Positions 5,077 to 57,189 of a DNA stretch of 64,000 bases are shown piece by piece. Source of the DNA: Branchiostoma floridae (lineage: Eukaryota; Chordata; Leptocardii; Amphioxiformes; Branchiostomatidae). The DNA lies in NCBI RefSeq assembly GCF_000003815.2, contig NC_049995.1, forward strand, positions 11,287,248-11,351,247, written 5' to 3'. Below the pieces are notes generated by a model that saw nothing but the letters and a program-made list of their open reading frames with translations, was not told where the DNA came from and did no database searches. How positions within the stretch are numbered: position 1 is the first letter of the stretch; every line of letters begins with the position of its first letter. The position numbers and the translations under genes were made by a program.

Positions 5077-5280
5077 TCAGTACGCTGTATCTAGTGATGT
5101 CATTGATGCACGTCGTAGTGGTGGTCCGAATGTCGCTGGCTGGACCAATGAGGATGTAGGAAAAAGTTTGTACCAGCCAATCACCATGGTGGAGAGGTCG
5201 AGGTCGTCCAATACGATCTGAGCGACACCCATGAAGACTTTGCGCTCGTGCATACGGTTGTAGTCCCCCCACACTGTGAT
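5077..5280 (-). CDS. RIM last exon: C-terminal half of C2B and stop
   Basis: This exon encodes 67 residues then TGA. It starts after a CAG acceptor at 5281 with ITVWGDYNRM and continues through VFMGVAQIVLDDLDL and MVIGWYKLFPTSSL, the hallmark end of the RIM C2B domain. It ends with a short Ser/Arg tail, RRASMTSLDTAY. In known RIMs this C2B is a calcium-independent C2 that binds PIP2, liprin-alpha and synaptotagmin. The phase-0 join to the upstream exon (ending KILQ) reproduces the expected ILQ-[IV]-x-VWGDY sequence. The C-terminus differs from the vertebrate tail after RRAS, so a further alternative end cannot be excluded. Confidence 0.95.
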   Translation of the reverse strand: MTVWGDYNRMHERKVFMGVAQIVLDDLDLSTMVIGWYKLFPTSSLVQPATFGPPLRRASMTSLDTAY

Positions 5281-5570
5281 CTGTCACATGGACACAAATC
5301 AGGTAAGATTCTTCATGCGTGAGGCTGTGTTAGTTTGATTATATGTAAGACATAAATCTTTGTCTGTTTCAAGTCTGAAAGTCTTTCCTTCCCAAATAAA
5401 TGTTTTCTACAATACTGCATGCACATAGCCATCACATAAACCACACAATGCAACTGCAAAACGAGCAAATATATGTCCCAAATATTGAAGAAAAAAATCT
5501 GAAAAAGAATAGCATTACTTATGTTGCAGAATGCCAAAAGAAAAATGAACAAGTAAAAGACCAAAATTGA

Positions 5571-5592
5571 AGAATCTATTGTTTGGTATACC
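5571..5592 (+). repeat. Short dispersed repeat, copy 1 of 3
   Basis: A 22-bp string beginning AGAATCTATTGTTTGG and ending TATACC. It recurs at 23632-23653 and, with a changed last base, at 59711-59732. It probably marks one edge of an old mobile-element family. Confidence 0.6.
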
Positions 5593-5880
5593 ATTCTCAA
5601 CCCTCCGGACTACTTTGATTTTACGATGAGGGTAACGGTTTTTCCAAACTTTTTTTTGCACACTCGCACTGATCTTGGGCTACCCAGAGGATAGCATAAC
5701 AGATACAACAACAGAAAAACTTACATATAAAGAAGTATGCATGTTTAGATATGGTAACAGAAATACATGGACAATGCAAATTAGCAATTGCTCAATTTAC
5801 AAAACCATATCCAGTTGCTATTGCTATCTGGCATATCTTATTACATGTACATGGATGTCTGCCCTTCATGGACTTAGTGG

Positions 5881-6139
5881 CAATAGTGTGGCGTAACTGG
5901 TAGAGCATTCCGCTTGGAATTGAAAGGTTCCGAGTTCGATACCCACCATGCCCCGACGTTGTGCCCTTGTGAAAGACACTTTACACGAGCTACCCTGACG
6001 ATGGAGTGATCCCCACCGAGCCTCTTTGTCTAATATGTTTAACTGTGTGCCAAAATGCACACTACGGATTTGGTGCGCCAATGTGCCAACATTTGCACAT
6101 TGGTCTCCCACCAATGACTAATAATTAAAAAAAAAAAAT
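5881..6139 (+). mobile_element. tRNA-derived SINE with poly(A) tail
   Basis: A tRNA-like head holds box A-like TGGCGTAACTGGTAGAGC and box B-like GGTTCCGAGTTCGATACCC. A body follows with TGTGCCCTTGTGAAAGACAC, a segment also found in the SINE at 11615, and the element ends in a run of A at 6127-6139. It sits 12 bp from a RIM exon, inside the intron. The missing acceptor-stem pairing and the tail argue against a functional tRNA. Confidence 0.75.
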
Positions 6140-6151
6140 ACATGGACTGAC

Positions 6152-6291
6152 CTGTAGAATTTTGCCCCTAAAAGGCTCTTGGAAGACCAGCTGTTCCTGG
6201 TATAGTGGGTCGAGCGTGCGGCGGGCTGTCTTGGTCTTTAGTTTGGCCATGCACCGCTTCCCTTCCATCAGGTACACTTTCACATATGGAG
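6152..6291 (-). CDS. RIM exon: central C2B domain
   Basis: A 140-nt exon (phase 1 in, phase 0 out) encoding APYVKVYLMEGKRCMAKLK, then TKTARRTLDPLYQEQLVF and ending KILQ. This is the central part of a RIM C2B domain. The APYVKVYL and LDPLYQ motifs are strongly conserved in the family. As in other RIM C2B domains, the acidic calcium-ligand pattern typical of synaptotagmin C2 is not evident here. Splice signals are clear: acceptor TTACAG at the 6292 side and donor GTCAGT below 6152. Confidence 0.96.
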
Positions 6292-6424
6292 CTGTAAGGG
6301 ATAAAATCACCTCATCAGTGTCCTAGCCAGCACAATATGAGCATTGAGACCCCCTAAGCCATAATTTGGACCCCTATGCAAGTACCTATACTGCGCCTCA
6401 GCCCCCTAAGTTGTCTTTCAACCT

Positions 6425-6590
6425 GTAATACTGTAGATGCGTTTAAGTTCGCGGGGATTTACTTTCGGGGTAGTGGGAAAATGGAGTGTTCGCGGTGGTT
6501 TTAAGTTCTTGGAAGCGCCATAGACTGTAGTTACATAAAACCACCACAAACATTTCTGCACTTACAGTGTTTCTTCTGATCAACATAAGC
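6425..6590. repeat. Partial copy of a dispersed short inverted-repeat element
   Basis: Contains ACTGTAGATGCGTTTAAG, GCGGTGGTTTTAAGTT and ACCACCACAAACATTT, all shared with copies near 37533, 45660, 53458 and 54674. It is degenerate and lies inside the intron between the two C2B exons at 6152 and 8265. Confidence 0.55.
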
Positions 6591-8264
6591 TGTCATTTGT
6601 TTGCTTGTCTTCCTATTTTGCTGGTATTTGGGTCTGACTGTACACTCCTGTGGAAGCTGAGAGCCTGAGTTCACTCCAGAGAACTGACTCCAACAAATAT
6701 TTTATCTAAAGATACAGTATGATCTGGATAGGGCAATAAATATGTTATAAAGTCTGTAACACTCCAATCCTGACTCAGAAAAGTTGATAGCAATTGTTGT
6801 ATTGATGTAATTCTCAAACTCATATATATGACATGCTACTATCATATATACTTTTAGAGTTTTCCTGTTCAGTTCAGGCAAACTTTACCGACTGGGTCCT
6901 GACACAGATAACTTTGCTATGTTGCTGACTTGACTTTGATTTCTTCTGCTGCTGTTTGAGTCATGTGGCATCTGGCTCTCTCTCTCCTGATGGACTATTC
7001 CCTCTATTTTGTCAGGCAAAAAGCATCACTCTTCTGCTACTGTCTCAAAGTCTATCTTACACCCCCCTCCCCACTATTTTGATTCCTTATACACATGTAG
7101 TAATAATAGCAACCTTAACAATGGCAATGATTTCAATTCTTGTGTAGAAAAGTAATATCATCTTAGTTTTGGTGACATTCTTTTAACTTTTCCTTTGTAT
7201 GTGGACTAATGAGCAATCAAGGAGACTTTTAATTAACCACAGAGAGTGCAGAGGTTAATTATAATACAGAAGTTTTCAGGGGGTTATGAAGTTTTCTGAA
7301 GTTTAGTTGAAACTATTTCATCATGTATTAGTTCATGCTTTACTGGTTTCATCCTTGCTGCTTATTAAAGACAAGTTTGGTTATAGAATGTAGAAATATA
7401 GGAAAATGTGGAGGTTATCACATTGAGTGCGACCAAAAGGGAGTCTAGATTTCACGTGAAAAAAGATTGGTTCAAAAGTATTAGTAGTTGATTGATTGGC
7501 AGGCATTCAAGGTCGTCATGCAGGGTGCATTCTATACCCAGGATGCACTTCACCCACCTGGAACTTCAGCGGCCGCTGAGTTGCGTTGTGATAGAAGGAC
7601 GGAAGAGTCCATTATGTTTAAATTTGGGAGGACTAGGGAGGAAATGGAGCCTGTGGGCACTAATATGGCCTGGGTTATATTAATGAAGAAATTTGTGTTA
7701 ATGACGCTAAATTCTGTTTATTAATTGTACTGATTCAAGCTTATAGCTGTGTTTCTATCATCAATAACCTGCTGTAACAATTAGTAACATCAATGAGATA
7801 CTGTCATTATGTGTACTCAACGGAAAGCATACTACCAGCATTCAATCCATGCAACTGTAGTTTTTCACTATTGCAGCCGGAAAATATATAACTTAGAACC
7901 TACTACAAAATGGCTAAACACAAGTAGCTAATAAAACAAATGGAGCAACATAAGGAAAATGGCATGTCATGCTTTTGTATTCTAGCATTTCTAGTTTGTA
8001 TGCTGAACAAAAGTTAAATAAAACTACATGCAACTTGATAATTCATTGAAATTTCTATTTATGAATGACTAACAACTTTGCAAAGCGATTCACTAAACAA
8101 TTACATAATTGCAGCTGAAAAATATACAACAAAAAACCTACATGTATACATGTATAGCTACTACAAAATCAGTAAACACAAGTAGCAAAAAAGACCCTAC
8201 TACTCTACTGACAATGATATAGATATGTACACTGTTAAATGAAGTAAGAACACATGGTTCGTAC
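6591..8264. other. RIM intron with no recognised feature
   Basis: AT-rich intron sequence between two C2B exons. A GC-richer patch with a NotI-type GCGGCCGC lies near 7570. It has open frames on the plus strand but no splice-flanked coding pattern that I recognise. Confidence 0.6.
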
Positions 8265-8476
8265 CAGGCAGTACGTTGGCCTCAGGTTTGGGAATCAAAC
8301 CCCGCGCCCGGATGATCTCCACCTCCAGCTGTCCGCGCCGGTCCATCAGCCCCACCTGGATGTCCCCCAGACAGGGGGCGCCCAGCACCTGTCTCCCCAC
8401 CAGCTGGGCCGGCCCCAGCCCGTCCAGAAAGTCGTTGATGGGCCCGTCCAGCCTCAAGCTAGATGGGAACCACACG
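8265..8476 (-). CDS. RIM exon: linker and start of C2B
   Basis: A 212-nt exon (phase 2 in, phase 1 out). It encodes VWFPSSLRLDGPINDFLDGL, then GPAQLVGRQVLGAPCLGDIQ, then GQLEVEIIRARGLIPKPEA. The FLDGLGPAQLVGRQ segment and the GQLEVE-IIRARGL strand that opens C2B are highly diagnostic of RIM proteins. The exon is GC-rich compared with its introns. Its splice sites are CTTACAG at the 5' end and GTACGA at the 3' end. Joined to the next exon it gives a VLP-A-APYVKVYL transition, as expected. Confidence 0.96.
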
Positions 8477-12127: not shown

Positions 12128-12369
12128 CCGTAGCAGACAGCTGGGAGGTGCTGGAGCTCTTCTTTCTCGACAGTCCCATGAAGGCCATCATCTTGCTGCT
12201 GGTCGATGTCTTCCGCATCCGCCGCCGGTTGTCCATGGAAGAGACGGCCGTGTCGGACACGCTGCCGTCGTTGCGGTCGTACATGTACATCTCCGCACTG
12301 CTGGTAGAGCGGGTCGGGAACCGTGAGCCGCCCGGGGGTGGGGGGTGCCGCATGCCTGGGGCCAGGTTA
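12128..12369 (-). CDS. RIM linker exon following the micro-exon region
   Basis: A 242-nt exon (phase 2 in, phase 1 out). Its first base T completes an AG|T serine codon, then it encodes NLAPGMRHPPPPGGSRFPTR, later MYMYDRNDGSVSDTAVSSMD, MRKTSTSSKMMAFMGLSRK and SSSTSQLSATG. It is a basic, Ser-rich linker. Because it enters in phase 2, it accepts any upstream exon ending in AG in phase 2. That matches the 35737 exon and nearly every micro-exon. The acceptor is CCCGTAG and the donor GTAAAG. Confidence 0.92.
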
Positions 12370-27155: not shown

Positions 27156-27179
27156 CTGACTGTGTCGGAGAAATCCACA
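27156..27179 (-). CDS. RIM micro-exon m24 (24 nt), last of the array
   Basis: Acceptor CCACCAACAG and donor GTATAC flank 24 nt in phase 2/2. It encodes V-D-F-S-D-T-V plus a split AG codon. Its TGTGGA start and 24-nt length link it to the V-E-x-T-P class at 32092, 32515 and 33361, though it has diverged. Confidence 0.75.
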
Positions 27180-27561
27180 CTGTTGGTGGGGAGGGGTGGA
27201 TGGAGATGTGGGCAGGATGATAAAGAGAGAGAGAGGGAAAGAGAGAGAGAGAGAGAAGAGAGGAATAAGATGCAGCAAGAGTTGTAGACGAAGAGAACAA
27301 TGTGAGGAAAGCCCTGAGCAGTTTTCTCACATGGCAGATTGATATGCATGTTGCTGAGTCCAAAAATGGTAATATTCTGATTTTTTTTAAAGGCAAAAAA
27401 TGCCAGTAACTTCAATGAATGTGGAATGGGCATGAAAATCTACTTCATGTGAGAAAGCCCAGAGCAGAAATGACACAAAGAGAAATGTGAGAGAAAGAGG
27501 GATAATCGGTGAGCTCTTTATTAGTAAGAAATTTGAAAGTAAAAATAAGTCCAGTAAGCAC

Positions 27562-27588
27562 CTGTGTTGCCCTTCAATGTCTTTCAAC
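27562..27588 (-). CDS. RIM micro-exon m23 (27 nt)
   Basis: Acceptor ACCTTGCAG and donor GTGCTT. Phase 2/2, encoding L-K-D-I-E-G-Q-H plus a split AG codon. It does not belong clearly to any of the repeated classes. Confidence 0.7.
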
Positions 27589-27727
27589 CTGCAAGGTCAC
27601 AAAGAGTAGGAAATATTTGTGGAAACTTTCAATAGGAATAATGCATAGAAAAGCTTGAAAATGATGTACAGAGAAACAGTAGATTATTCAGAATGAAAGA
27701 GTACGATGTGAAATTGTGAGTGTGTAC

Positions 27728-27757
27728 CTAGGAGGATGCAATCTTTCCCTTTCCGAC
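27728..27757 (-). CDS. RIM micro-exon m22 (30 nt)
   Basis: Acceptor TTGTCTACAG and donor GTACAC. Phase 2/2, encoding S-E-R-E-R-L-H-P-P plus a split AG codon. It is a singleton with good splice sites. Confidence 0.7.
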   Translation of the reverse strand, partial: VGKGKIASS

Positions 27758-28040
27758 CTGTAGACAAGATATATGAGAGAACAGAATGCATTTACGATGC
27801 TAGGTATCATTTTGGATATAAGCTGAAAGAAGATATACAATTATCTGATATATGTGAACTTGATTTCTCCTACAGAGAAAGAAAAGACTCCTAAGATGAA
27901 GAAAAGAAGGAACTGCATTAACATGAGAGCTGGCATCCAGCATTGTTTGAGAGTGACCTTTGTACTGGCATCTAACTAGATCAGCAGAATTCAGTCACTT
28001 TGTACACACAATGCCTCTATGGGACACATTAACCAGAAAA

Positions 28041-28496
28041 GTTTAAAGGTCTGCTACGCAGTTTTTTGCGCTCAAATTTGAAATATTCTAGAACTAAGAA
28101 ATCTCAGATTTACTACTACTTTTTGACACATTTTGACACTTTTGTGTCATTATTTCACATTTGCAACGTAGAGAATTAGCCTACAAACATTTCGTCCTAC
28201 GCGCGCTGTAACTTTCTGACCTCCCTAGTTAGGCACCGGTGAGAATTCAAACAAGAATCAATCATCAACGTTTCGTTCGGAAGAAACAAAATGGCTGAAA
28301 CCCAGCGCGGGTGTGCAGATTCACAGGTTTTGAAACGCGCTCGCACAGCGAAAATATCGACTCCCGACATACCTTGAATAGTGTTCCGTAACGTGGTAGG
28401 CTTGATTCAACTAACTACATATTAAAGAAATGGCCGGAAAATGGATTTTTTGTTTTCAGTTTGAAGCGCAAAAAACTGCGTAGCAGACCTTTAAAC
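28041..28496. mobile_element. Inverted-repeat element (MITE-like), 456 bp
   Basis: The ends are inverted copies of each other: GTTTAAAGGTCTGCTACGCA at the left and its complement at the right, continuing through AGTTTTTTGCGC. The interior is GC-richer. There is no transposase. It lies in the intron between micro-exons at 27728 and 28735. The exact target duplication is unclear because the ends themselves are TTTAAA-rich. Confidence 0.8.
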
Positions 28497-28734
28497 CATT
28501 CCTTAATACCTTTTGTTGAATTAAAAGGTTTACAGTCATTACTGATTGGTAACCCATGTCTGTTAGGCTTTAAAATTTGTATCTTGGATTCTTTTAGAGG
28601 AGTTTGGACATCTAACATTCTTGGCACTATGAACCGATATACAGGATTTAAGCATACTGAACCTCAAATATAAATGATGGGATAAATGATGGGGAAGATA
28701 AAGGGAAGAGATAAGAACAATGAAAACATTGTAC

Positions 28735-28758
28735 CTTGAAGAATCTGTCTCCTCTAGA
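28735..28758 (-). CDS. RIM micro-exon m21 (24 nt)
   Basis: Acceptor CATTCTGTAG and donor GTACAA. Phase 2/2, encoding L-E-E-T-D-S-S plus a split AG codon. It is a singleton with an acidic and Ser-rich product. Confidence 0.75.
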
Positions 28759-29085
28759 CTACAGAATGGAATGACAAACACAAAGTAGAGTACAGAATGA
28801 ATGTGTGGATTAATTAGAATGAATTTGCATGAAGGGTGTATAAAGATGGGGGCCTGATGCAACATTAGGACCAACTGGACAATTTCATGCTTTCTTTCAT
28901 TATTACATTAGAATATAAACTTCTCAACATTCTGTTATAATAAATATTTATCATATAACTCTGTGTATTGTTTTTCTTTGGTAGGGGGCTTTGGAACTGT
29001 AAAAGGTAGCAAAAAGTGTATTAGATACATTTAGACGTCATATACTTGAAACTAGATGGAAGGTTTGTGGAAAAAAATCTGACAC

Positions 29086-29121
29086 CTTTGTGGTTTTTGC
29101 TCCCTATCTGGTTCCTGTCTT
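29086..29121 (-). CDS. RIM micro-exon m20 (36 nt), R-Q-E-P class
   Basis: Acceptor TTTTTGCAG and donor GTGTCA. Phase 2/2, encoding RQEPDREQKPQ plus a split AG codon. It is one of a run of five closely similar exons from 29086 to 29807. Confidence 0.85.
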
Positions 29122-29250
29122 CTGCAAAAATCATGAATGGACAAATTATTCATGATATGAAATTCTAAAAATAAGAAGCAAAATGAAAGGAATGAAGATG
29201 GTAAAAACTATTCTGAATCAGAGGAATTCAGAGATGATGTATCTTAGCAC

Positions 29251-29292
29251 CTTGAAGTTCGTGAATTTTGTTCTCTATCTGGCTCTTGTCTT
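29251..29292 (-). CDS. RIM micro-exon m19 (42 nt), R-Q-E-P class
   Basis: Acceptor TTTTTGCAG and donor GTGCTA. Phase 2/2, encoding RQEPDREQNSRTS plus a split AG codon. It is two codons longer than its 36-nt sisters at the 3' end. Confidence 0.85.
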
Positions 29293-29438
29293 CTGCAAAA
29301 ATAATGGATGAAAAAATTGTTCCTTATTGAAAATAACGTATGTGAAATTCTGACAAACAAAAAGCCTACGTAGAGGAAGAAACATGAAAAGGAAATTGTA
29401 AAAATTGTTGCGGGATTCAGCAAAAATGCTTCTGACAC

Positions 29439-29480
29439 CTTAAAGTTTGTGAAGTTTGCTCCCTATTTGGGTCCTGTCTT
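29439..29480 (-). CDS. RIM micro-exon m18 (42 nt), R-Q-E-P class
   Basis: Acceptor TTTTTGCAG and donor GTGTCA. Phase 2/2, encoding RQDPNREQTSQTL plus a split AG codon. It is separated from m19 by only 146 nt. Confidence 0.85.
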
Positions 29481-29607
29481 CTGCAAAAATAGCAAATACA
29501 AAATTGTTGATTTCTAAAAGTATGGAGTTACAATGACAAAGAAGCCCAGAAATATGCATAAAAAACATTGTGAAAATTGATGTGAAATTCGTCAGATAAA
29601 TTTACAC

Positions 29608-29643
29608 CTTTGTGAATTTTGTTCCCTATTCGGCTCCTGTCTT
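29608..29643 (-). CDS. RIM micro-exon m17 (36 nt), R-Q-E-P class
   Basis: Acceptor TTTTTGCAG and donor GTGTAA. Phase 2/2, encoding RQEPNREQNSQ plus a split AG codon. It has the same peptide as m16; the exons differ only at a silent position. Confidence 0.85.
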
Positions 29644-29771
29644 CTGCAAAAACAATGAATGGAAAATTGTTGATAACTAAAAGTATGGAATTCTAATTTT
29701 AAAAAAGCCCAGAAATATTTAAAGAAAACATTGCAAAAAATGATGTGTAATTCATCTGAAGAAAGTTACAC

Positions 29772-29807
29772 CTTTGTGAATTTTGTTCCCTATTTGGCTC
29801 CTGTCTT
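29772..29807 (-). CDS. RIM micro-exon m16 (36 nt), R-Q-E-P class
   Basis: Acceptor TTTTTGCAG and donor GTGTAA. Phase 2/2, encoding RQEPNREQNSQ plus a split AG codon. It is identical at the protein level to m17, which indicates a recent duplication. Confidence 0.85.
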
Positions 29808-29936
29808 CTGCAAAAATATTAGACAGAAAATTGTTGATTACAAGTAAGCAGTAATATTGATGACATGTTATGTTATGTACTATATGCAGAGAGTCAACTG
29901 TTACGATTGTTGTGAAATTCAGAAAACATTTGACGC

Positions 29937-29961
29937 CTTCATTGAGAATTCTGCTCTCTGA
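29937..29961 (-). pseudogene. Decayed micro-exon copy, R-Q-E-P class
   Basis: The stretch resembles the second half of the R-Q-E-P exons (GAGAGCAGAATTCTCAATGAAG against AGGGAACAAAATTCACAAAG), followed by GCGTCA where the others have GTGTCA. The unit from the TTACAG acceptor is 25 nt, so inclusion would shift the frame. Using the next AG gives an in-frame TGA. It is probably a dead exon. Confidence 0.65.
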
Positions 29962-30177
29962 CTGTAAGAATGGGAAAATTATTTTCCACATGCAAACTAG
30001 CTGCATGCCTGATTGACTGAATATTCAAAATTTCATTTCCTTGACCTATTAGTTAGAAAACTGACTGATAGATTAGTCAATTGATTGGCCGGTTGATTGG
30101 TTGGTTAGTTCATGAAAGGTGAACAGATGTTTGAAAAACATGAGAGTAAGAGCGTAAAAAGAGACTAGTATCAACAC

Positions 30178-30213
30178 CTGATTGATGTTGGTTCTCTAGT
30201 AGAATCTTCCCTT
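30178..30213 (-). CDS. RIM micro-exon m15 (36 nt), R-x-E/D class
   Basis: Acceptor TGTCTGCAG and donor GTGTTG. Phase 2/2, encoding REDSTREPTSI plus a split AG codon. It is a diverged relative of the R-Q-E-P group. The upstream intron side carries CATC/CATT repeats on the minus strand. Confidence 0.85.
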
Positions 30214-30396
30214 CTGCAGACATGTATAAAAAGATACACGAAGAGATGAATAGATGGATGGATGGATGGGGGATTTGAATGAATGAATGGAAGAATGGAT
30301 GAATTGATGAATGACTGGATGAAAGTCAAGTATACAAAGAATCCATAAAAATTACAATCTAGCAAGCATCAGCTAGGGGAGTCTGAATTTCAGAAC

Positions 30397-30432
30397 CTTG
30401 TTGAAGCAGATTCCCTGGCATATTCTTGTCTT
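30397..30432 (-). CDS. RIM micro-exon m14 (36 nt), R-Q-E class
   Basis: Acceptor TTTTAGTAG and donor GTTCTG. Phase 2/2, encoding RQEYARESAST plus a split AG codon. It keeps the R-Q-E-x-x-R-E spacing of its class. Confidence 0.8.
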
Positions 30433-30566
30433 CTACTAAAATGATAATAATTTTATGAGTTAATGAATGATTGGCTTGATCAAGTGGAAAGCTGACAAGA
30501 ATTTCAGTGGAAAACAGCGCAAGAATCAATGATTGCTAGAAACTTTGAGTGAAATGACTTTGACAC

Positions 30567-30602
30567 CTTGTTGATATTTGTTCCCTTACAGGCTCCCCCT
30601 GT
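30567..30602 (-). CDS. RIM micro-exon m13 (36 nt), G-E-P-V-R-E-Q class
   Basis: Acceptor TCTAAGCAG and donor GTGTCA. Phase 2/2, encoding QGEPVREQIST plus a split AG codon. It pairs with m10 at 31348, which encodes RGEPVREQIST. Confidence 0.85.
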
Positions 30603-30794
30603 CTGCTTAGAAGTGGAAATGCAAGAGCAAAAATTACAGATGAATGCACAGAAAAGTTTGGATTAAAAGTGGTAAGAACTTTGGATTTATGAAATTTTCA
30701 ACTTGAAATAATTATAACTTAAGAACAATAATGAACTGTTCTTAAAAAAGCTCTTTGCCAAAAGGTGATTTTTTTTTACAAGGAGTCCTGTCAC

Positions 30795-30824
30795 CTTGTC
30801 GGTTCTACATATGGGTCCTCTCTT
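30795..30824 (-). CDS. RIM micro-exon m12 (30 nt), R-E-x-x-Y class
   Basis: Acceptor ATCTACAG and donor GTGACA. Phase 2/2, encoding REDPYVEPT plus a split AG codon. It pairs with m9 at 31549. Immediately upstream in transcript sense (30839-30935) lies a (CATT)n tract. Confidence 0.85.
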
Positions 30825-30838
30825 CTGTAGATATGGAA

Positions 30839-30935
30839 ATGAATGAATGGATTAATGGATTATAAATGAATGAATGAATGAATGAATGAATGAATGGATG
30901 AATAAATGAATGAGAGAATGAATGAGAGAATGAAG
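30839..30935. repeat. (GAAT)n tract; (CATT)n in the RIM transcript
   Basis: Tetranucleotide repeat at the acceptor side of micro-exon m12. In transcript sense it is a dense series of UCAU motifs. Similar but shorter tracts stand upstream of m9 (about 31590-31640) and m15 (about 30245-30310). Confidence 0.85.
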
Positions 30936-31035
30936 TCTGATGGAGGTAAGAGCTCCATAGACAGAAATATTGCTTGACAGATTTCATGTAGTTGCTTGAC
31001 GGATTTCATGTAGTTTGTCAGTTAGGAGAGAGTAC

Positions 31036-31065
31036 CTGACAGTGCTAGTGTTGTTCCACATGGAC
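31036..31065 (-). CDS. RIM micro-exon m11 (30 nt), M-W class
   Basis: Acceptor CACATTGTAG and donor GTACTC. Phase 2/2, encoding SMWNNTSTV plus a split AG codon. It is nearly identical to m8 at 31733, including adjoining intron bases (ATTGTTCCACATGGACCT-type plus-strand flanks). Confidence 0.85.
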
Positions 31066-31112
31066 CTACAATGTGGGGAAGTACCATTGAAGACTAAATT
31101 GTTGCTAATATA

Positions 31113-31114
<2 letters not shown>

Positions 31115-31208
<94 letters not shown>
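31115..31208. repeat. (TA)n microsatellite
   Basis: About 47 TA units, with a small ATGCATA start. It sits roughly 50 bp upstream, in transcript sense, of micro-exon m11. The run in the assembly may not be the true length. Confidence 0.95.
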
Positions 31209-31211
<3 letters not shown>

Positions 31212-31347
31212 CAGATAACTTATTCAAACTTTAGTATTTGAAAAAGTGGAAATTCATTGAAGTGAGCAAAAAGCAGAAGGTTCACAGCCCCCCCTCCCCC
31301 CATGTTAGGAGAAATTCATGATCACTAAAATGACTTTTATTTGACAC

Positions 31348-31383
31348 CTTGTTGATATTTGTTCTCGAACTGGCTCCCCTCGT
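31348..31383 (-). CDS. RIM micro-exon m10 (36 nt), G-E-P-V-R-E-Q class
   Basis: Acceptor CATAATCAG and donor GTGTCA. Phase 2/2, encoding RGEPVREQIST plus a split AG codon. It is sister to m13. Confidence 0.85.
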
Positions 31384-31548
31384 CTGATTATGCAGAAATG
31401 CGGGAGGAAAATGGATCCATAAATGGACAGAAAAATGAGGATGAAAGTGGAAATGATTCAGGAGAAGAATATTACTTCAATTATCAAAACATGTATTTCA
31501 CAAAAAAATCCATTGAAAGGTGTTATTCATTTTGACTAATTTTATCAC

Positions 31549-31578
31549 CTTGTGGGATCCATATATGACTCCTCTCTT
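31549..31578 (-). CDS. RIM micro-exon m9 (30 nt), R-E-x-x-Y class
   Basis: Acceptor TATATGCAG and donor GTGATA. Phase 2/2, encoding REESYMDPT plus a split AG codon. It is sister to m12 and is also preceded by a CATT-rich tract in transcript sense. Confidence 0.85.
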
Positions 31579-31732
31579 CTGCATATATGGACATGAGTGA
31601 ATGACAGAATGAATGGATAAATGAATGATAGTATGAAAAATACATGTATTAATGGATGGTATAAAAAGATGGAGAAAGTGATAAAAAACCCTACATTAAC
31701 CGATTTACATGACTTTGGGGGAAGTATTGTAC

Positions 31733-31762
31733 CTGACAGTGCCAGTATTGTTCCACATGGAC
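31733..31762 (-). CDS. RIM micro-exon m8 (30 nt), M-W class
   Basis: Acceptor CACATTGCAG and donor GTACAA. Phase 2/2, encoding SMWNNTGTV plus a split AG codon. It is sister to m11. Confidence 0.85.
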
Positions 31763-32091
31763 CTGCAATGTGGGTAGATAACAACTAAAATTGTGGCAGT
31801 ACTGTATTGTTACTGACTCAAAGACTAAGTTTTAATATTAAACATCATTTTCTGACTAGTTATTTTCATTACAGAGTTGTAACAACGCTAGTCTCGGACC
31901 TAGTCTTGTGATCTCGTGAGACTAGGCCATTCCGCAATCAAGATGTAATGAGCAGACATCAGAAATTTTGACGTACGTGTTTTATCTGTTTTCAAGAGTC
32001 ACTGTTCAAAGATTAAACTAGAGTTGAAAGCAATTTTGAAGGCAAATATGTGCTAGGAAGTGATAGAGGATTATGACAGAAGTGAAACTAC

Positions 32092-32115
32092 CTGTGAGTA
32101 GGTGTGCTTTCAACA
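32092..32115 (-). CDS. RIM micro-exon m7 (24 nt), V-E-x-T-P class
   Basis: Acceptor GTTTTCCAG and donor GTAGTT. Phase 2/2, encoding VESTPTH plus a split AG codon. Confidence 0.85.
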
Positions 32116-32243
32116 CTGGAAAACAAACACATCATGGGCCATCACAACATGATGATGGAAGAAATGGAAAATTTGGAGTAAAGGAACAAAAAGTCAGACT
32201 CAAAACTTCTTTGTATAAAATTACTGGGCAAAAAAATGAGTAC

Positions 32244-32279
32244 CTGGTAGGATATGAACTGGTATTATCCCACATGGGC
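32244..32279 (-). CDS. RIM micro-exon m6 (36 nt), M-W class
   Basis: Acceptor CACCTGTTAG and donor GTACTC. Phase 2/2, encoding PMWDNTSSYPT plus a split AG codon. It is a longer member of the M-W class. Confidence 0.85.
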
Positions 32280-32514
32280 CTAACAGGTGGTTGTGGAAGG
32301 AAGGAAAGTGACCAAAGCTCCATTTTAGTTAGCTTAATTTGATTAAATTTTGAGACAAACAGTAAAAGTGAAAAATGGATGATCATGAATGATTGGAATT
32401 AACTAGAAAATATGCTGAATATCTTAGAGAAGGTAGGTAAATGTAATGAAGAAACTGGAGAAAAATACATGTAGAAAGTGAAAGTAAATAAGTGAAAGTA
32501 TGTGATTTGTATAC

Positions 32515-32538
32515 CTGTGAGTGGGTGTACCCTCCACA
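32515..32538 (-). CDS. RIM micro-exon m5 (24 nt), V-E-x-T-P class
   Basis: Acceptor CTTCACCTAG and donor GTATAC. Phase 2/2, encoding VEGTPTH plus a split AG codon. Confidence 0.85.
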
Positions 32539-32759
32539 CTAGGTGAAGCATAGTGAGAAAGACATGACATGACAATGAAAAAAAATGACATGAATGATGG
32601 AAGGAATGAAGTGATGGCTGAATGACAGCAAAATGAGGTTCAGAATATGTTAAGTAATAAATTCACTTTTTTCCAATTTTAAAGTATCACAAATCTGCAG
32701 TTTATAAACTTTTAAGGTAGTTGAAGTATTTAAAAGGATGATTGTAAAAGAGAGTGTAC

Positions 32760-32792
32760 CTTGCAGAGTATGAGTTATTTTCCCACATGGGC
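32760..32792 (-). CDS. RIM micro-exon m4 (33 nt), M-W class
   Basis: Acceptor CATGTTTCAG and donor GTACAC. Phase 2/2, encoding PMWENNSYSA plus a split AG codon. Confidence 0.85.
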
Positions 32793-33360
32793 CTGAAACA
32801 TGGGTGGATAGTAGGAGAGAGGAAATAGCTTATTGTCTTTATAACAATTTTATTTGTTGGGAAATTTTGATGCATTTGTAGGCATAAACAGCAAGAGGTG
32901 GTCAAGGCTTAGTGGCCATTTATTCCACTTTATGACACAAGGAGTCCTTATCTAAGCCTATTGTTTGAAGTTCTCATGACATGCATTCTGCTGGTAGGGC
33001 CTACATGTACACTGGATTGCTGTGTACCTTTTTGAAAGGGTAGTGATGTACCCTATTTTGTGGTTGCCAAATGTTATGTGAGATCTTATCATTAATAAAA
33101 ACACTCCATATTTGGCAACTTAAATAAGGTGTTAGACCTGAGATCACAGTGTACTATAAAAGTCCGGTATTATGCAATACAACTTACACATACTGAAACT
33201 ACAAGGCGCATTTAAACAAAAAAAAAAGGAGCAATGTACAGAAAATGAATAAGAATTGATGGAATATGATGGATGAATGAAGAAGATTGTATACATGTAC
33301 TGTGTCATGTATATGCAGTGTATGAGATAAGAATAAAGAGTGAAGTGAAAGTACATGTAC

Positions 33361-33384
33361 CTGTGCATGGGTGTGTTTTCCACA
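33361..33384 (-). CDS. RIM micro-exon m3 (24 nt), V-E-x-T-P class
   Basis: Acceptor TTCTTGCAG and donor GTACAT. Phase 2/2, encoding VENTPMH plus a split AG codon. Confidence 0.85.
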
Positions 33385-33869
33385 CTGCAAGAAGGGAAAG
33401 TGAGGGAGAAAGTTCAGCATAGAGAGAGACAATGAAAGAGTGATGAAGGAGATGAATATATAATGCAGATAGAGCAGTACTTAAGCAAAACGTTTGAGAA
33501 GTTCTGTCCCCAGAGAAATTCTTTACACATGGTGGAGTTTGGAAATGGTCACATGATAACTCTACTGTGTAACAATACTGTAAGGCTGGATTGCACAGTA
33601 GACTGTACTACACTATAGCCTATCATACCTAACAGTAGTCAACATACTTGTAGTCTACAGACACATCCAGTACATGTAACACTAGTCTACTGTTCAGCAG
33701 TAATAGATATGACCTACTCCTGGCATCATTAGGTCAAGAATACTTAAATGTATGTTTTGAATGCAGCAAAGTAGACAAACAATGCCTAAAATGGTAGCTA
33801 AGTACATTGAGAACACTCTACATACAATGTACTTAGCAGGGTCATAGTGGGATTCAGCATGTATTATAC

Positions 33870-33923
33870 CTGGTTTGATGGGTAGGTACATTTCCCAATT
33901 GAATTACACATATCAAGAGACAG
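33870..33923 (-). CDS. Doubtful RIM micro-exon m2 (54 nt)
   Basis: The 3' half (GGAAATGTACCTACCCATCA then AACCAG, donor GTATAA) resembles the V-E-x-T-P exons and reads G-N-V-P-T-H-Q-T. No AG lies at the expected place. The nearest usable acceptor (AAAATCAG) gives a 54-nt, in-frame phase 2/2 exon with a hydrophobic start, CLLICVIQ. It may be an exon with a shifted acceptor or a decayed copy. Confidence 0.4.
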
Positions 33924-34182
33924 CTGATTTTGAGGGCCTTGATGAACACGTGTAAAAACAGCCAGAAGGGACCTAAAGCTGTCCCATGGCACATCAATAT
34001 GCAACTGTAAAAAGGTGTGATCAGATGCAAGTATGGGTTTTTCATGCAACTTTGCATCATTGTAGACTGGACATTCAGGATTTACGATTCTCACCATGAT
34101 AAACTACATGTCACTGATTGTACATTCACAGTTTCACACACTACAACTGTACAAGACTGAGACCTTTTGACGTATTAAATAC

Positions 34183-34206
34183 CTTTGACTTCTGTAGTCA
34201 TGCCTT
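34183..34206 (-). CDS. RIM micro-exon m1 (24 nt), first of the array
   Basis: Acceptor CATCTGCAG and donor GTATTT. Phase 2/2, encoding RHDYRSQ plus a split AG codon. It is a singleton lying 1.5 kb after the large exon at 35737. Confidence 0.7.
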
Positions 34207-35736: not shown

Positions 35737-35903
35737 CTGTGTCTTCCGTGTCTCTCGTTACGAGGCAAGTATTGCTCAGACTGTACCGACGGGGCGCTGG
35801 TGGTGCTGATTCTGGAGACGGTGCTGGCGCGTGACATCTCCGACACGTCGCTTATGTCACTGTCCACTGAAGCAGCATCAGGGCTCTGCCGACGTACTCG
35901 TGT
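35737..35903 (-). CDS. RIM linker exon preceding the micro-exon array
   Basis: A 167-nt exon (phase 0 in, phase 2 out) encoding TRVRRQSPDAASVDSDISDV, SEMSRASTVSRISTTSAPSV and QSEQYLPRNERHGRHR. It is Ser/Thr/Arg-rich and holds several RxxS sites. It ends in a bare AG before GTACCT, so the following codon is Arg or Ser depending on which exon is joined next. This is the phase that every micro-exon accepts. The acceptor is TTGTTTCAG at 35904. Confidence 0.92.
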
Positions 35904-41550: not shown

Positions 41551-41847
41551 ACAGGGCAGCTGTAACAACCACGGGGCGGCTGTAATAACCACAGGGCAAC
41601 TGTAACAACCACGGGGCAGCTATAACAACCACAGGGCAACTGTAACAACCACGGGGCAGCTGTAACAACCACAGGGCAGCTGTAACAACCACAGGGCAGC
41701 TGTAACAACCACGGGGCAGCTGTAACAACCACGGGGCAGCTGTAACAACCACGGGGCAGCTGTAACAACCACGGGGCAGCTGTAACAACCACGGGGCAGC
41801 TGTAACAACCACAGGGCAGCTGTAACAACCATGGGTCAGCTGTAACA
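41551..41847. repeat. Minisatellite, 20-bp unit
   Basis: About 15 units of CTGTAACAACCACGGGGCAG with A/G variation. All three minus frames are open over the run only because the unit lacks stops, so no gene is called. It is intronic, about 50 bp from the next RIM exon. Confidence 0.95.
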
Positions 41848-42526: not shown

Positions 42527-42717
42527 ATACCCCCTTCACATTAGGCGCGATTCGATCGGACGACGAGTCTGCGAGCTCTAATTTACGAGGAGGCATGACC
42601 CTGATGCCGACGAAGAAATGGCTGAGTTCCCCCTTCCCGTCAGGGTCATGCCTCCTCGTAATTTAGACCTCGCAGACTCATCGTCCGATCGAATCGCGCC
42701 TAATGTGAAGGGGGTAT
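42527..42717. mobile_element. Near-perfect 191-bp palindrome (foldback MITE)
   Basis: Two arms of about 80 nt, starting ATACCCCCTTCACATTAGGC and ending in its complement, pair around a short loop near 42615. They differ by only a few bases (for example GAGCTCTAATTTACG against GTAATTTAGACCTCG). TA sits at both outer edges, consistent with a TA target. Confidence 0.85.
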
Positions 42718-43763: not shown

Positions 43764-44275
43764 ACATGTCTATACAAGTCCCATGCCCCACTCCCCACCA
43801 ACTGGTTTTCTTATGATACAATCAAACAGTCACCTACTATAACCCCCCGTATCCCAACATACAGCTAGCCTTTCTAGAATTTCATGACTCAAGCAGCCTT
43901 AAATGACGGCCCATCTTTGTTCCCGACCCTCTCCTCTATACTTGCATACAATCCCTGTGCCCCCCTCCCCACCAACTGGTTTTCTTATTATACAATCACA
44001 TAGTCATAGACTCACACGTAGCCCAACACACAGCTAACCTTTCTAGAATTTCATGACTCAAGCAGCCTTAAATGACGGCCCATCTTTGTTCCCGACCCCC
44101 TCCTCTATGCTTGCATACAAGCCCCATGCCCCCCTCCCCACCAACTGGTTATACAATCACACAGTCACAGACTATAAGCCCCCGTAGCCCAACATACAGC
44201 TAACCTTTCTAGAATTTCATGACTCAAGCAGCCTTAAATGACGGCCCATCTTTGTTCCCAACCCCCTCCTCTATG
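43764..44275. repeat. Tandem repeat, three units of about 167 bp
   Basis: TTTCTAGAATTTCATGACTC recurs at 43871, 44040 and 44206. Each unit also holds GCCTTAAATGACGGCCCATC and CCCCCTCCCCACCAACTGG. It is non-coding. Confidence 0.9.
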
Positions 44276-45655
44276 CTTGCACATATGGGCCGTATACTAT
44301 CCATCTGCATTGCCATCCAATCAAGCAAAATCATTACCCTCGGTTTCCTGACCCTCCCCAATTCCATTAACCGTCCCAGACATCCAGCCAAGAGGTCACC
44401 AGCTGTTTCTACATCCTTCCTTTTCCTTCCATCCTCCTCTCATTCCTTCTTTCCTTCCCCCCATCTTCCACTAGCAGACTGTACTTAAACTACGCCCTAC
44501 CTGTCCGTACATTTGACTATTAAATAGTTGACTCGTAAACAGGTACGCCGCCAGACGCCATAACATTGGCGTGATGCCAGGGCCTCGTCACATGACCGTA
44601 TCCCATCTGCCCCTTCTACGGGGGTCAATCCAGGTGATCAACACATTTTTAAGACACCAATAATGAAGACGTCTTTCCGAATAACTGTTGTAGTTTTTAA
44701 ATACAGTAAAGACTTTTAAAAACTCAATGGTCTATAACATATGGACGTTATATCTATTGGCATTTTCAGCAATATAAACAGAACGCAGCTAATTCAACCA
44801 ACACTAAATGACTATCATTCCGAAGGCTTAATAGTCAATTCAATATTGCTGTGGCGGACTTTCTATTTGTAGCAAATCAATACAAACGTGGTCAGGACAA
44901 TACATCATATATTACTAAAGCGGTTATTGTTAAACATGTCAGAGGTTATTAGGGAATAGATCATTTAATACAGTCCCATATTGGATATCTATCAATAACG
45001 GTAATGCAAGGCCAATATATTTGGACCTTAACAACGGAGGTCAATTTGCATTAGATTTTATGAAGTATTATTGTATTGGATACAACGTTCAACATTGGTA
45101 AAAAGCACAGAGAAGCTTGTGTCAAAACTATTGAAGTAGAGAACAATATTATCCAACAGATAAATGCAAGAAAAATATACCTATTTGCCAGTTAGTTGAT
45201 CAAATGTAATCACTAAATGGTAAATTGGACATAGTAAAAGTAGAAGGAAACAAACCTACGATCCAACACCCCAACATAAGGTTTAGAATTAGGGCTTGTG
45301 CGAACATAGGTGTGTAACCAAAAAACAGTTGCGGTAGCATTTTTATAATCATAATTAGCCTGAAGTGTCCTATATTGTTGAAGTATCAGGTTACAAAATT
45401 GTTCAAGTTGCTGGACTGCGCAACATTTTTTTCCATTATTGTTTTTCATAATATTTGCATTAGCATTTAATTCATCAGAAAACACAGTGGCTGAACATAA
45501 TGTAGGTGTCATGTAAATGTTGTTGTCACACTGATGCCACCTACTGACTATCTGCAGTACTACAGTTGTTTGTAGCCTTGCAAAGATTGCTTGTACATTG
45601 ATACCAGCCAGAACTTCCTTGTAGAATGCTGACGATGTCTTTAACTTCTAAATTA

Positions 45656-46280: not shown

Positions 46281-46616
46281 ATTTATTTATTTATTTATTG
46301 ATCTTTTAGGGTAGTCCCTTCAGTTAACGTAGTAACTGATTTCCAAGGGAGCCCTATATACATGTTCGCACATGTCCGCACAACGACGGGTTATACCGCC
46401 CCTTACGGGGTGACACACCCGTCCGGGTGAATGATGTAGATCACCATGTGGCTGATACGAGACAGAGGTCGCCAGGCCTCCATCCGGGTGATTTGAAGTG
46501 AATCACCAACTTCCGACAGAAGAATTTGCACCAACGCACACCGCACCATCGCACGTGTGGGGGTTCTTTAACGTGCATGGGGTATGGCTCTCCCCATACA
46601 CGGGACCTCCATTTAA
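46281..46616 (-). mobile_element. SINE, 3' part (separated by insertion)
   Basis: Minus-strand SINE body ending in an (AAAT)n tail at 46281-46300. It shares TTCTTTAACGTGCATGGGG and CCCCATACACGGGACC with the SINEs at 11615 and 51000. It breaks off at TTAA 46613-46616, and its tRNA-like 5' part resumes at 49075. Confidence 0.8.
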
Positions 46617-47281
46617 GGGGGCACACACCAGTTTATTTGGGGGTTCAAATGGAGGCGGCACACCCTCAAGTCTAGCGACCATCTCTTCCAGGGAATTATC
46701 CTGAAGGAAAATAACTGTATATGGGGTGAGAGGATATACCTTCAGCTACAAGAACAACTGAGTTTCGATCCTTCAACTTCTCTAATTTTGAAAAATTATA
46801 GGGAAAAAACATTATTTTCATGTCAAAAATGATGCACAAAATCGGGCATTTTCGCATTGGATAAAACAGATGAAGAAGATTTTTCCGGCAAGCACGACTG
46901 ATACTGCCAGAAAGAGGAAAATCTAAAGACTAATCCAGCCAATTATAAAGAAAATTCTAGTACTACAGTTTTTTTAATCATCCACGGCGCGCGGCATTGC
47001 AACTTTGCTTGACACAGCGCTACAGAGGTAAATCTAGGTCACCGGCCTCTTTACATTCAGGCGTAGGGATATCGCGGAAGCAACGCGCGGACCAAAACAC
47101 AATTTGCACCAAAAACACACCATTTCCTACGCTTTTCAGCAATGTAACCGTTTAATGTCATTTCGCAGGAAATAATGAGAAATGTCAACTCAAACATGGG
47201 CCCTCGGAAGCCTTTCGTCACTTTTTGGTCGCGGACTACCACGGACCCCGGTCGCGGAAGAACTGGGGTGTGCACCGTTAA
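46613..47281. repeat. 0.67-kb unit, copy 1 (TTAA-flanked)
   Basis: After TTAA it starts GGGGGCACACACCAGTT, and it ends GGGGTGTGCACCG before TTAA. The ends are imperfect inverted repeats of each other, piggyBac-style in target choice. I saw only two base differences from copy 2 (AGAACAAC against AGACCAAC, CCTCGG against CCTTGG). Confidence 0.9.
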
Positions 47282-48409
47282 TATATGCAAATTATGATTA
47301 ATATTGTCCATGACTTTAAAAAGTTATACTATATAATCATGCCAAGTTTGACTTGTCTGCGACTTTTCTTTCTCGAGTAACAGGTGGTTGAAAGTTGCGG
47401 TGTCGGAAGGCTGTTTTTGCGCCTCCAGGATGGTATACCATTCAATGCGCATAATAGCAATTACGTCACAATGAGCTTGTCCTATGGAAGAGGTTTTAGG
47501 CTATCAATACGTACTAAATAAAGAGTTATGGCCATGAAAAGGAATGACAGAGGGGTGCTCTTGTGATGGAGCACACTTTCCTCCTATTTCTGACTGGAAC
47601 AAACGGTGTAAACCTCTTAGAACATATTTGAGTTCGTGACGTCACAATACCTGCCGCTGGCCTATGTTCTGAAGTGACAACGATGCAGTTTTAAGTTCCG
47701 CGCTATAACGGAAAGCACTTGAAATGTTAATTTTTGGTCATATCGGGTAGAGAATAGACCTAGCTTTCCCGTCCAAGCGTTTCCGTTGGCAAGACTCCTT
47801 TTATTTCGTAGAAAAATGAAGTTAAATGTTGTACCTTTGGTAAAGATGGAGGTCTGTGCTGCACTTCTTGCGGCTATGAAGGTATAAACGGGCATCTGCT
47901 AAGATAAGGCTGTACAGTTTGGTGTCGGTCTCGGTGAGATAAAGAAGCCTTGGGATGTGTCTTCGGATAAGTGCAACTTATTTGTGTTAAGGCCGAGAAC
48001 TAGCGCCACACCGAACTTGACACTTGATTCGGAAGGAAAGTGCGAAAGTGACGTCATCGGGGCCTTTTTTCATTGGGAAATGCCTGCTTCTCAATGTAGG
48101 AGCAATTGTGAAACGTTCAAATGCGATTTCAAAGTGCCCAAGAGGTACTGTAGTTTAAACAACAATGTTTCGGTAGGTTTTATGCAATCTATGCTTAGCA
48201 CACACACTTCGAAGGCTACGCGACCTTGTTTGGGGGGGGGGGGCGTGGGAGGGGGGCAAATCCACCCATTATATGACAGTGTAGAATCATATCAAAACCT
48301 GCGAAATCCGGCTTTTTTTCAGTCAGATACGATCGGGGCTATACACTTTCATGGGAAAAATGCAATTTGTTGGCTATTATCACTAATACTTTTTTCAGGA
48401 TGGGTGCTT

Positions 48410-49078
48410 TTAAGGGGGCACACACCAGTTTATTTGGGGGTTCAAATGGAGGCGGCACACCCTCAAGTCTAGCGACCATCTCTTCCAGGGAATTATCCTG
48501 AAGGAAAATAACTGTATATGGGGTGAGAGGATATACCTTCAGCTACAAGACCAACTGAGTTTCGATCCTTCAACTTCTCTAATTTTGAAAAATTATAGGG
48601 AAAAAACATTATTTTCATGTCAAAAATGATGCACAAAATCGGGCATTTTCGCATTGGATAAAACAGATGAAGAAGATTTTTCCGGCAAGCACGACTGATA
48701 CTGCCAGAAAGAGGAAAATCTAAAGACTAATCCAGCCAATTATAAAGAAAATTCTAGTACTACAGTTTTTTTAATCATCCACGGCGCGCGGCATTGCAAC
48801 TTTGCTTGACACAGCGCTACAGAGGTAAATCTAGGTCACCGGCCTCTTTACATTCAGGCGTAGGGATATCGCGGAAGCAACGCGCGGACCAAAACACAAT
48901 TTGCACCAAAAACACACCATTTCCTACGCTTTTCAGCAATGTAACCGTTTAATGTCATTTCGCAGGAAATAATGAGAAATGTCAACTCAAACATGGGCCC
49001 TTGGAAGCCTTTCGTCACTTTTTGGTCGCGGACTACCACGGACCCCGGTCGCGGAAGAACTGGGGTGTGCACCGTTAA
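48410..49078. repeat. 0.67-kb unit, copy 2 (TTAA-flanked)
   Basis: Direct repeat of 46613-47281 at an offset of exactly 1797 bp, with the same TTAA boundaries on both sides. Confidence 0.9.
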
Positions 49079-49235
49079 CGTCCTATCCGAGGGACGACTC
49101 ATTTTTCACTTGAGTAAAGTGAGGAAAGTCGTGTAAAGTGCCTTTCCCAAGGGCACAAGACCGGCAACACGGCAGGCGGATTCGAACCGGCGACCTCTCG
49201 GTCACGGGCCGAATACACTACCACTGTGCTACGCG
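49075..49235 (-). mobile_element. SINE, 5' tRNA-like part (separated by insertion)
   Basis: Minus strand: the head has GTAGCACAGTGGTAGTG (box A-like) and GAGGTCGCCGGTTCGAATCC (box B-like). It then runs through TTGGGAAAGGCACTTTACAC to GGATAGGACG and stops at TTAA. It continues at 46616 downwards. Confidence 0.8.
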
Positions 49236-55626: not shown

Positions 55627-56720
55627 TTATATATATGAAATTTCTAAGGTTTGATTTTAGGCCATGTTGATCTGATTATCACTGTGCGAAAGGGTGTGAT
55701 TTCCGGACAAAGTCGGAGTTGACATATTTTTGGACATGCTAAATATTCGGACTGTGTCCGGGCACGATGTTCAATATTTCCCATGTCTGGAAATATCATG
55801 AGTCAGGAATTGTCTTGTTATGTATCCGGACAAATAAGACTTTCCTGCTTTTCAAGATACGCGCCAATGACGTTTCTTGCCTCCGAATACGTGATATGTT
55901 CTACATTCTTTACATATCCAAGGTCCATATATTTCGATAAGGAATACCCGGACAAATTAGGAGTTTGCACGAAGCATGATGTGCATTATTTCTGGGCCAT
56001 TGTCAGATGACATTTTCAATTCATTATGTCTCAGAATATCATGAGTCATGAAATGTTTCAGCACAAGCCCGGACGGATAGAATTTCCCGTTCTTCCGAAT
56101 ACGTGTCAGGGACGTTTCATGTTTTCGAATTCATACTATTTTCTTTTCTTTCCATTTACGAGACATATCCGCGACAGATATTCCATGGATTAGTTTTAGG
56201 ACAGATTCGAAGTTAGCATATTCTGACCGTTACCGATAAAGGTATTCTATACGTGAATTGTGAATCGGTGATTGTTTTATTGCGCATCTGAACAAATAAG
56301 ACTGCATTATTTTGCCGAAATTTTCGCTCCTTCCGAATTCATATTCCGTTCCATTTACGACAGATGTCCAAAACAGAAACATTCCAGAGATCAGTTTTCG
56401 GAAAACTTAATGGTTAACAAATTACTTTTCTTGTCATACATGAATCTGAGATTGTTTTGTTGGGTATCCTTAAAAAGGTTTCCTATCTTGACAAATACAC
56501 GTCATTAACGTTTTTGCTTCTGTATATGTGTTTTTATTCTACAACGAGTATGCCCGATGTCAATGTATGTTTACTCTTTAATTTTCTGGTAATTGAAGCT
56601 TAAGCTTCCATATACATGTGCAAATATACTGACATCGACATTTACAATCAAATGACACAGAAAGCAATCTTTGCGATGGTAACAATTATGAGTCAAGTAT
56701 TATTGTTTCTTTGCATATCC

Positions 56721-57079: not shown

Positions 57080-57189
57080 GGACAATATCATGACAAAAAG
57101 TCACTCATGATATTGAATACCAGCGTTGCTGTGTGGGAATGGCCCATATCCGGACAATATCACGAGGCAACTTTACTCGTAAAGCGGTT

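Follow-up and report, generated by a model that had tools for sequence, protein, structure and literature searches.

How many versions of one linker could a single gene for a presynaptic scaffold be built to supply? The question is raised by the gene for RIM in the lancelet Branchiostoma floridae, which carries a long tandem array of very short exons. The window analyzed is a stretch of 64,000 nucleotides (nt) of contig NC_049995.1 (assembly GCF_000003815.2, positions 11,287,248 to 11,351,247 of the forward strand); all coordinates follow the numbering of this 64-kb window, and the microexons are numbered 1 to 23 in their order on the minus strand. They occupy positions 34206–27156 (minus strand), between the RIM exons 35903–35737 and 12369–12128. 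We consider it probable, though well short of certain, that they are optional, translated cassette microexons in the linker between the C2A and C2B domains of lancelet RIM.

The host gene is a RIM with a PDZ domain and both C2 domains, and the array lies within the C2A–C2B linker. Among solved structures, the C2 domain encoded by the exons at 8.4–5.1 kb has RIM1 C2B as its best matches (E = 1e-63 and 2e-63), the next being synaptotagmin-1 (E = 4.6e-18); the Pfam C2 match of these exons has an E value of 1.3e-19. Two PDZ exons (85–86% identity) and two C2A exons (46–58%) were located upstream on the same strand by tblastn, with mammalian PDZ and C2A sequences as queries. The last C2A piece falls at window positions 42962–42906 (minus strand). 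The domain order is PDZ, C2A, linker exons, array, the linker exon 12369–12128, and C2B.

Microexon lengths are 24 nt (six exons), 27 (one), 30 (five), 33 (one), 36 (eight) and 42 nt (two), with 12 of the 23 at 24–30 nt and 11 at 33–42 nt. Extraction of the sequences showed that each has AG immediately before it and GT after it, itself ends in AG and has a length divisible by three (3n); all 23 are in phase 2 on both sides and open if read after the leading AG. The introns between them are short (127–977 nt). The RIM exon upstream also exits in phase 2, with the donor GTACCT, and the exon downstream is entered in phase 2 from each plausible acceptor (12369, 12300 or 12297). Because there are three such acceptors, the start of the exon after the array may itself vary by splicing. 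Two of the three, within 12297–12369, form a CAGCAG pair.

A 24th copy, at 29961–29937, has decayed to 25 nt with GC replacing GT, and in self-alignment the stretch can still be aligned to the D repeats described below. It alone breaks the 3n rule among the 24 copies recognised, where recognition relied on splice sites and lost copies without them could have escaped. Gene, position, phase and exon count agree with an earlier sequence-only reading, which had described about 24 tandem exons (23 clear ones of 24–42 nt) in a RIM synaptic gene, flanked by AG and GT, of 3n length and phase 2 on both sides, accompanied by one decayed copy and framed by a constitutive exon exiting (35737) and another entering (12128) in the same phase. 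Its assignment to RIM is borne out by the C2B match to RIM1 and by the upstream PDZ and C2A exons. A doubtful 54-nt exon in the same reading could not be pinned down: the sole candidate of that length, 31762–31709, is a longer version of the exon at 31762 with a second donor and was not counted. A 21-nt candidate outside the array, 22576–22556, is 3n and open and was likewise left out of the count.

The codon formed at each junction between array exons is AGA, AGG or AGT (Arg or Ser) and never a stop. For this reason none of 20,000 random subsets of microexons, placed between the two outer RIM exons, gave a stop or a frame error with any of the three acceptors. By the same AG/N junction rule all 2^23 ordered subsets would be open, which is arithmetic rather than enumeration. 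Inclusion of all 23 would lengthen the protein by 242 residues, among which are 47 Arg, with 13% hydrophobic residues and a net charge of +7; an example of a predicted junction peptide is RRQEPNREQNSQR. No second array or allelic copy was found in the assembly among the best 40 of 230 and the best 40 of 89 candidates returned by two DNA queries that together covered 18 of the 23 exons. Apart from the array, the candidates scored there were simple or interspersed repeats.

Exons this short might be products of chance, or tandem DNA-level repeats that happen to carry AG...GT, and a repeat of 163-bp period and microsatellites are indeed present. We nevertheless find such an origin scarcely credible, and rejected chance and satellite origins on the strength of a frame-blind scan, the identity of exons compared with their flanks, a comparison of D copies, and a third-position bias. 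The scan combined a hand-weighted acceptor score with a following [ACT]AG/GT within 18–60 nt; its weights and the AG/GT rule were chosen after the exons were known, but length and frame were part of neither. At the lowest threshold the 7.2-kb array yielded 17 candidates. Of these, 16 have 3n length and an open phase-2 frame, and all 16 belong to the 23 microexons, although they are not independent because several exons are recent tandem copies. Four control stretches gave 26 candidates, only 3 of them 3n and open: the 14.7-kb 3' flank contributed 13 (one 3n-open), 28 kb upstream 10 (one) and the plus strand of the array 3 (one), whereas the 1.4-kb 5' flank contributed none. Seven of the 23 exons, with weaker acceptors, were overlooked at this threshold, and at the strictest one three array candidates were left, all 3n-open.

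Conservation is confined to the exons. In seven older duplicate pairs, named here by exon start, exon identity is 75–93% and flank identity 55–77%, where unrelated flanks give about 64% under the same aligner (an average over pairs low in exon identity). The pairs are 31762/31065 (exon 93%, flanks 62 and 69%), 31383/30602 (83%, 71 and 66%), 31578/30824 (80%, 77 and 69%), 32792/32279 (82%, 63 and 71%), 33384/32115 (79%, 55 and 61%), 32538/32115 (79%, 70 and 67%) and 33384/32538 (75%, 66 and 66%). Among five tandem D copies the exons differ by 0.20 with no gap positions, a value partly due to misalignment around a 6-nt insertion, and the introns by 0.43 with 216 gap positions. Third codon positions hold 24 of the 39 differences in eight aligned pairs, in which some exons are used twice (P = 0.0005; ratio of nonsynonymous to synonymous differences, pN/pS, 0.25). 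With six disjoint pairs the count is 18 of 28 (P = 0.001). Since exons stay alike while introns diverge, and differences cluster at third positions, the exons have evolved as protein. Together with the extracted sequences and the scan, these comparisons confirm that the array is real and show purifying selection on it as protein sequence.

The predicted peptides fall into family A (VExTPTH), family B ([PS]MWxN), family C (RE[ED]xYx[DE]PT) and family D (R..P.REQ.S and looser relatives), with five single exons besides. In shuffle-based alignment the mean z is 5.3–8.2 within groups, 1.7 between A and B, and −0.3 to 0.4 between A or B and C or D. Families C and D are linked (mean z 3.7), and the single microexon 23 is weakly A-like (z 3.0). 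The array exons thus form at least three unlike groups (A, B and C/D), and these are interleaved. In self-alignment 31676–31340, a stretch with a C exon, a D exon and their intron, matches 30918–30559; around the B exons 31783–31729 matches 31086–31032 and 32854–32746 matches 32344–32230; and the A exons match one another. The family part of the array is ordered A B A B A B C D B C D, and this order, with the self-alignment, points to duplication of A-B and B-C-D blocks followed by duplication of single D exons. In the growth of the array, single exons (family D) would have been duplicated in tandem, and so would multi-exon stretches, namely C with D and probably A-B and B-C-D.

Two array introns contain interspersed repeats. 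One, an element of some 450 bp whose ends match in inverted orientation (28042–28496), lies in the intron of 977 nt that separates microexons 20 and 21; 18 other near-full copies of it occur in the genome among the candidates scored. The intron between microexons 6 and 7 holds a repeat of about 130 bp (around 31883–32015) with some forty genome matches at 72–89% identity.

How would such an array be spliced? The donors are weak: G at intron position +5 occurs in none of the 23 microexons, compared with 7 of 10 other RIM exons (P = 3e-5), and the match to U1 is also lower (P = 0.002), with the caveat that the ends of the comparison exons are our own predictions. A mammalian-type donor model, which expects a strong donor, recovers the true borders of just 6 of the 23 exons. 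Weak donors fit exons that need help for inclusion. In fly, microexons that depend on the microexon-enhancing (eMIC) domain show weakness at both the 5' and the 3' splice site, lie between short introns and carry UGC close to the 3' splice site, according to the relevant portion of PMC8797185. TGCAG stands directly before 11 of the 23 microexons, five of which are recent D copies, compared with 1 of 9 controls.

Beside the caveat on exon ends, several observations weigh against reading the array as regulated cassettes. Wherever a tandem exon duplication survives, symmetric exons are to be expected, whether or not the exons are constitutive. The weak 5' splice site of fly eMIC exons is unlike that of mammalian microexons, and the fly exons are further marked by UCUC, by long AG exclusion zones and by branch sites of a strong CUAAY type, as given in the same portion of PMC8797185. 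In the lancelet array, TGC in the last 32 nt of the intron is found for 14 of 23 microexons and 5 of 9 other exons, which is no difference; CTAAY in the last 60 nt for 3 of 23 and 2 of 9; and TCTC in the last 40 nt for 6 of 23 and 1 of 9. The AG exclusion zone is marginally longer in the microexons (P = 0.051). The eMIC signature is thus incomplete. YCAY, the motif for Nova, occurs at 35 per kb in the array introns, compared with 15–20 in four other minus-strand stretches and 11 on the plus strand of the array, but this density is mostly explained by base composition. Against dinucleotide shuffles 223 occurrences were observed and 197 expected, none of 200 shuffles reaching 223 and 14 of 22 introns being positive, and one of four other stretches tested (45.0–41.9 kb) shows a similar excess (63 vs 49). 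Nova was consequently set aside as the main regulator, the excess being small after shuffling and matched in a control stretch, and was kept as a possibility. Regulation of the eMIC type appears plausible, and regulation by Nova possible.

If the microexons are optional cassettes, the neuronal splicing machinery would choose these weak-donor exons one by one or in blocks. The chooser would perhaps be the eMIC domain of Srrm2/3/4, possibly together with Nova. The frame would be kept in subsets spliced in genomic order, because the 23 exons share one frame and the AG/N type of junction codon. The resulting RIM molecules would differ in linker length, by 0 to 242 extra residues, and in linker content. 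A variable hydrophilic spacer, rich in Arg, Glu, Ser, Thr, Gln and Pro and probably disordered, would separate the half with PDZ and C2A from the half with C2B.

Tandem homologous exons of equal phase are also the classic substrate for mutually exclusive choice as in Dscam, in which competing RNA structures, or some other means of exclusion, would admit to each transcript either a single microexon (about 23 forms) or one from each family (more forms). Families A, B, C and D each hold homologous alternatives, and C and D are related, which would suit such a choice. The exons are not, however, all versions of one module, since at least three unlike groups (A, B and C/D) interleave; unlike exons were duplicated together; and with every exon 3n the inclusion of several would spare the frame. 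In a docking-site search limited to exact 9-mers in three flanking stretches (about half of the flanking introns), to which imperfect pairing is invisible, no 9-mer found a complement in more than 4 of the 22 array introns, which does not exceed the null expectation. Free inclusion is favored over exclusive choice by the interleaving of unlike groups, the duplication of multi-exon stretches and the lack of a docking site in this partial search, and we regard exclusive choice as unlikely. Of the two modes offered by the sequence-only reading to produce many linker variants, free cassette use is accordingly the better supported; its structural claim stands, as every tested subset is open.

The array could instead encode a constitutive repeat, most or all microexons always being included in a repetitive linker stretch of about 240 residues with the symmetry a by-product of duplication. 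Symmetric phase is needed for in-frame exon duplication with or without skipping, and the introns between the microexons are short. Donors that lack the +5 G throughout, and the alternative splicing of the linker in rat RIM1 described in part of PMC10634917, speak against such a repeat, which seems to us an unlikely solution too. Since rat RIM1 is alternatively spliced upstream of C2B, optional use of the lancelet array is somewhat favored. The missing +5 G would also suit a relic, once used and selected, in which most microexons are now weakly spliced and decaying, the copy at 29961 being the first to go; the visibly decayed copy and the interspersed repeats in two array introns point the same way. 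This is improbable, as AG and GT, length and frame are intact in 23 of the 24 recognised copies though flank identity in the older pairs has fallen almost to background, and even near copies show a pN/pS well below 1.

As an extension, which we advance tentatively and hold to be rather doubtful, the microexons could form a combinatorial splicing code in a presynaptic scaffold inside the cell. They would be included independently or in blocks in different neurons, for up to 2^23 (8.4 million) in-frame RIM forms from one chordate gene.

Table. Features of the RIM array and its surroundings (window coordinates)
Feature	Position	Strand	Length (nt)	Description
RIM exon before array	35737..35903	-	167	phase 0 in, 2 out
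Microexon 1	34183..34206	-	24	RHDYRSQ, single
Microexon 2	33361..33384	-	24	family A, VENTPMH
Microexon 3	32760..32792	-	33	family B, PMWENNSYSA
Microexon 4	32515..32538	-	24	family A, VEGTPTH
Microexon 5	32244..32279	-	36	family B, PMWDNTSSYPT
Microexon 6	32092..32115	-	24	family A, VESTPTH
Microexon 7	31733..31762	-	30	family B, SMWNNTGTV
Microexon 8	31549..31578	-	30	family C, REESYMDPT
Microexon 9	31348..31383	-	36	family D, RGEPVREQIST
Microexon 10	31036..31065	-	30	family B, SMWNNTSTV
Microexon 11	30795..30824	-	30	family C, REDPYVEPT
Microexon 12	30567..30602	-	36	family D, QGEPVREQIST
Microexon 13	30397..30432	-	36	D-like, RQEYARESAST
Microexon 14	30178..30213	-	36	D-like, REDSTREPTSI
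Decayed copy	29937..29961	-	25	not 3n, GC for GT
Microexon 15	29772..29807	-	36	family D, RQEPNREQNSQ
Microexon 16	29608..29643	-	36	family D, RQEPNREQNSQ
Microexon 17	29439..29480	-	42	family D, RQDPNREQTSQTL
Microexon 18	29251..29292	-	42	family D, RQEPDREQNSRTS
Microexon 19	29086..29121	-	36	family D, RQEPDREQKPQ
Microexon 20	28735..28758	-	24	LEETDSS, single; like decayed copy over 21 positions
Microexon 21	27728..27757	-	30	SERERLHPP, single
Microexon 22	27562..27588	-	27	LKDIEGQH, single
Microexon 23	27156..27179	-	24	VDFSDTV, single, weakly A-like
RIM exon after array	12128..12369	-		RNDGSVSDTAV...SQLSATG, phase 2 in; acceptor 12369/12300/12297
C2B domain and RIM-type C terminus, three-exon span	5086..8448	-		from domain searches

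Elsewhere in the window, two near-identical stretches in direct orientation lie about 1.8 kb apart (around 46600–47300 and 48400–49100), with open frames that are identical or nearly so, as expected of long terminal repeats or a tandem duplication. A palindromic pair of about 35–40 bases around a short spacer is found at 42560–42700, and minisatellites at 41554–41847 (20-base unit), 43772–44281 (169), 56714–57162 (72) and 59037–59396 (121).

Neural microexons and tandem exon arrays are each known; what appears new, within the literature searched, is a long tandem microexon array with one universal junction codon type in a central active-zone scaffold. Neither for RIM nor for a lancelet synaptic gene was a tandem array of microexons described in open-access titles and abstracts among the matches listed, with subscription papers and the genome annotation outside this scope, and the sequence-only reading had likewise known of no such description for RIM. 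Predicted transcripts of the public annotation may already contain some array exons. If the array is used, lancelet neurons could tune the length and chemistry of the RIM linker in many small steps from one gene, which would provide a natural series for testing how this linker sets the coupling of vesicles to channels. The AG/N junction rule, under which no stop arises, illustrates how free mixing of exons can be rendered harmless in a gene.

Among known systems, the Z microexons of chordate Agrin, regulated by Nova, resemble the array as neural microexons in a synaptic gene with intronic YCAY clusters, and a gene model of B. lanceolatum is reported to include a Z-like microexon (PMC12445529, in part). 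They differ in that the same part of that paper gives two microexons in Ciona and no array, and in that the YCAY enrichment in RIM is weak after composition control. Schistosome micro-exon genes (MEGs) share with the array a series of very small symmetrical exons and a pool of similar proteins made by splicing, but they belong to platyhelminths, their products are secreted or gland-associated, and microexons make up most of their coding region, as summarized in sections of PMC4350168. The lancelet gene instead has one array inside a large multidomain scaffold gene and is not a MEG by that definition.

Two further comparisons are with the bilaterian eMIC programme and with RIM itself. The array departs from the former in having 23 exons in series by tandem duplication, and the other features of fly eMIC exons are not clearly present. 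Microexons of the eMIC programme are known as singles or pairs. Similarities are the very short 3n exons, the neural gene, the short introns and the weak 5' splice sites (PMC8797185, same portion); a length of 30 nt or less, within which 12 of the 23 array exons fall, is given for such microexons in the abstract of PMC7821500. Rat RIM1 belongs to the same gene family and likewise has optional in-frame sequence upstream of C2B, in two alternatively spliced blocks, H1084–R1169 and A1207–T1378 (PMC10634917, in part). These are larger blocks, and the sections of PMC10634917 concerned mention no tandem array of related microexons. We take the second rat block to end about 70 residues before C2B, near the end of the lancelet exon that follows the array, on approximate numbering.

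The other instructive comparison is with arthropod Dscam1. In the lancelet gene the exons span 8–14 codons, belong to unlike groups and lie in a linker. Dscam clusters encode alternative versions of domain segments. The two have in common tandem homologous exons of the same phase in a neuronal gene with potentially many isoforms, but the Dscam clusters are mutually exclusive, as stated in the portion of PMC1397879 concerned, which quotes 38,016 forms for fly Dscam. Should the combinatorial code be true, the repertoire of lancelet RIM would exceed this number, and it would do so by free inclusion, acting on the length and content of a linker rather than on surface recognition.

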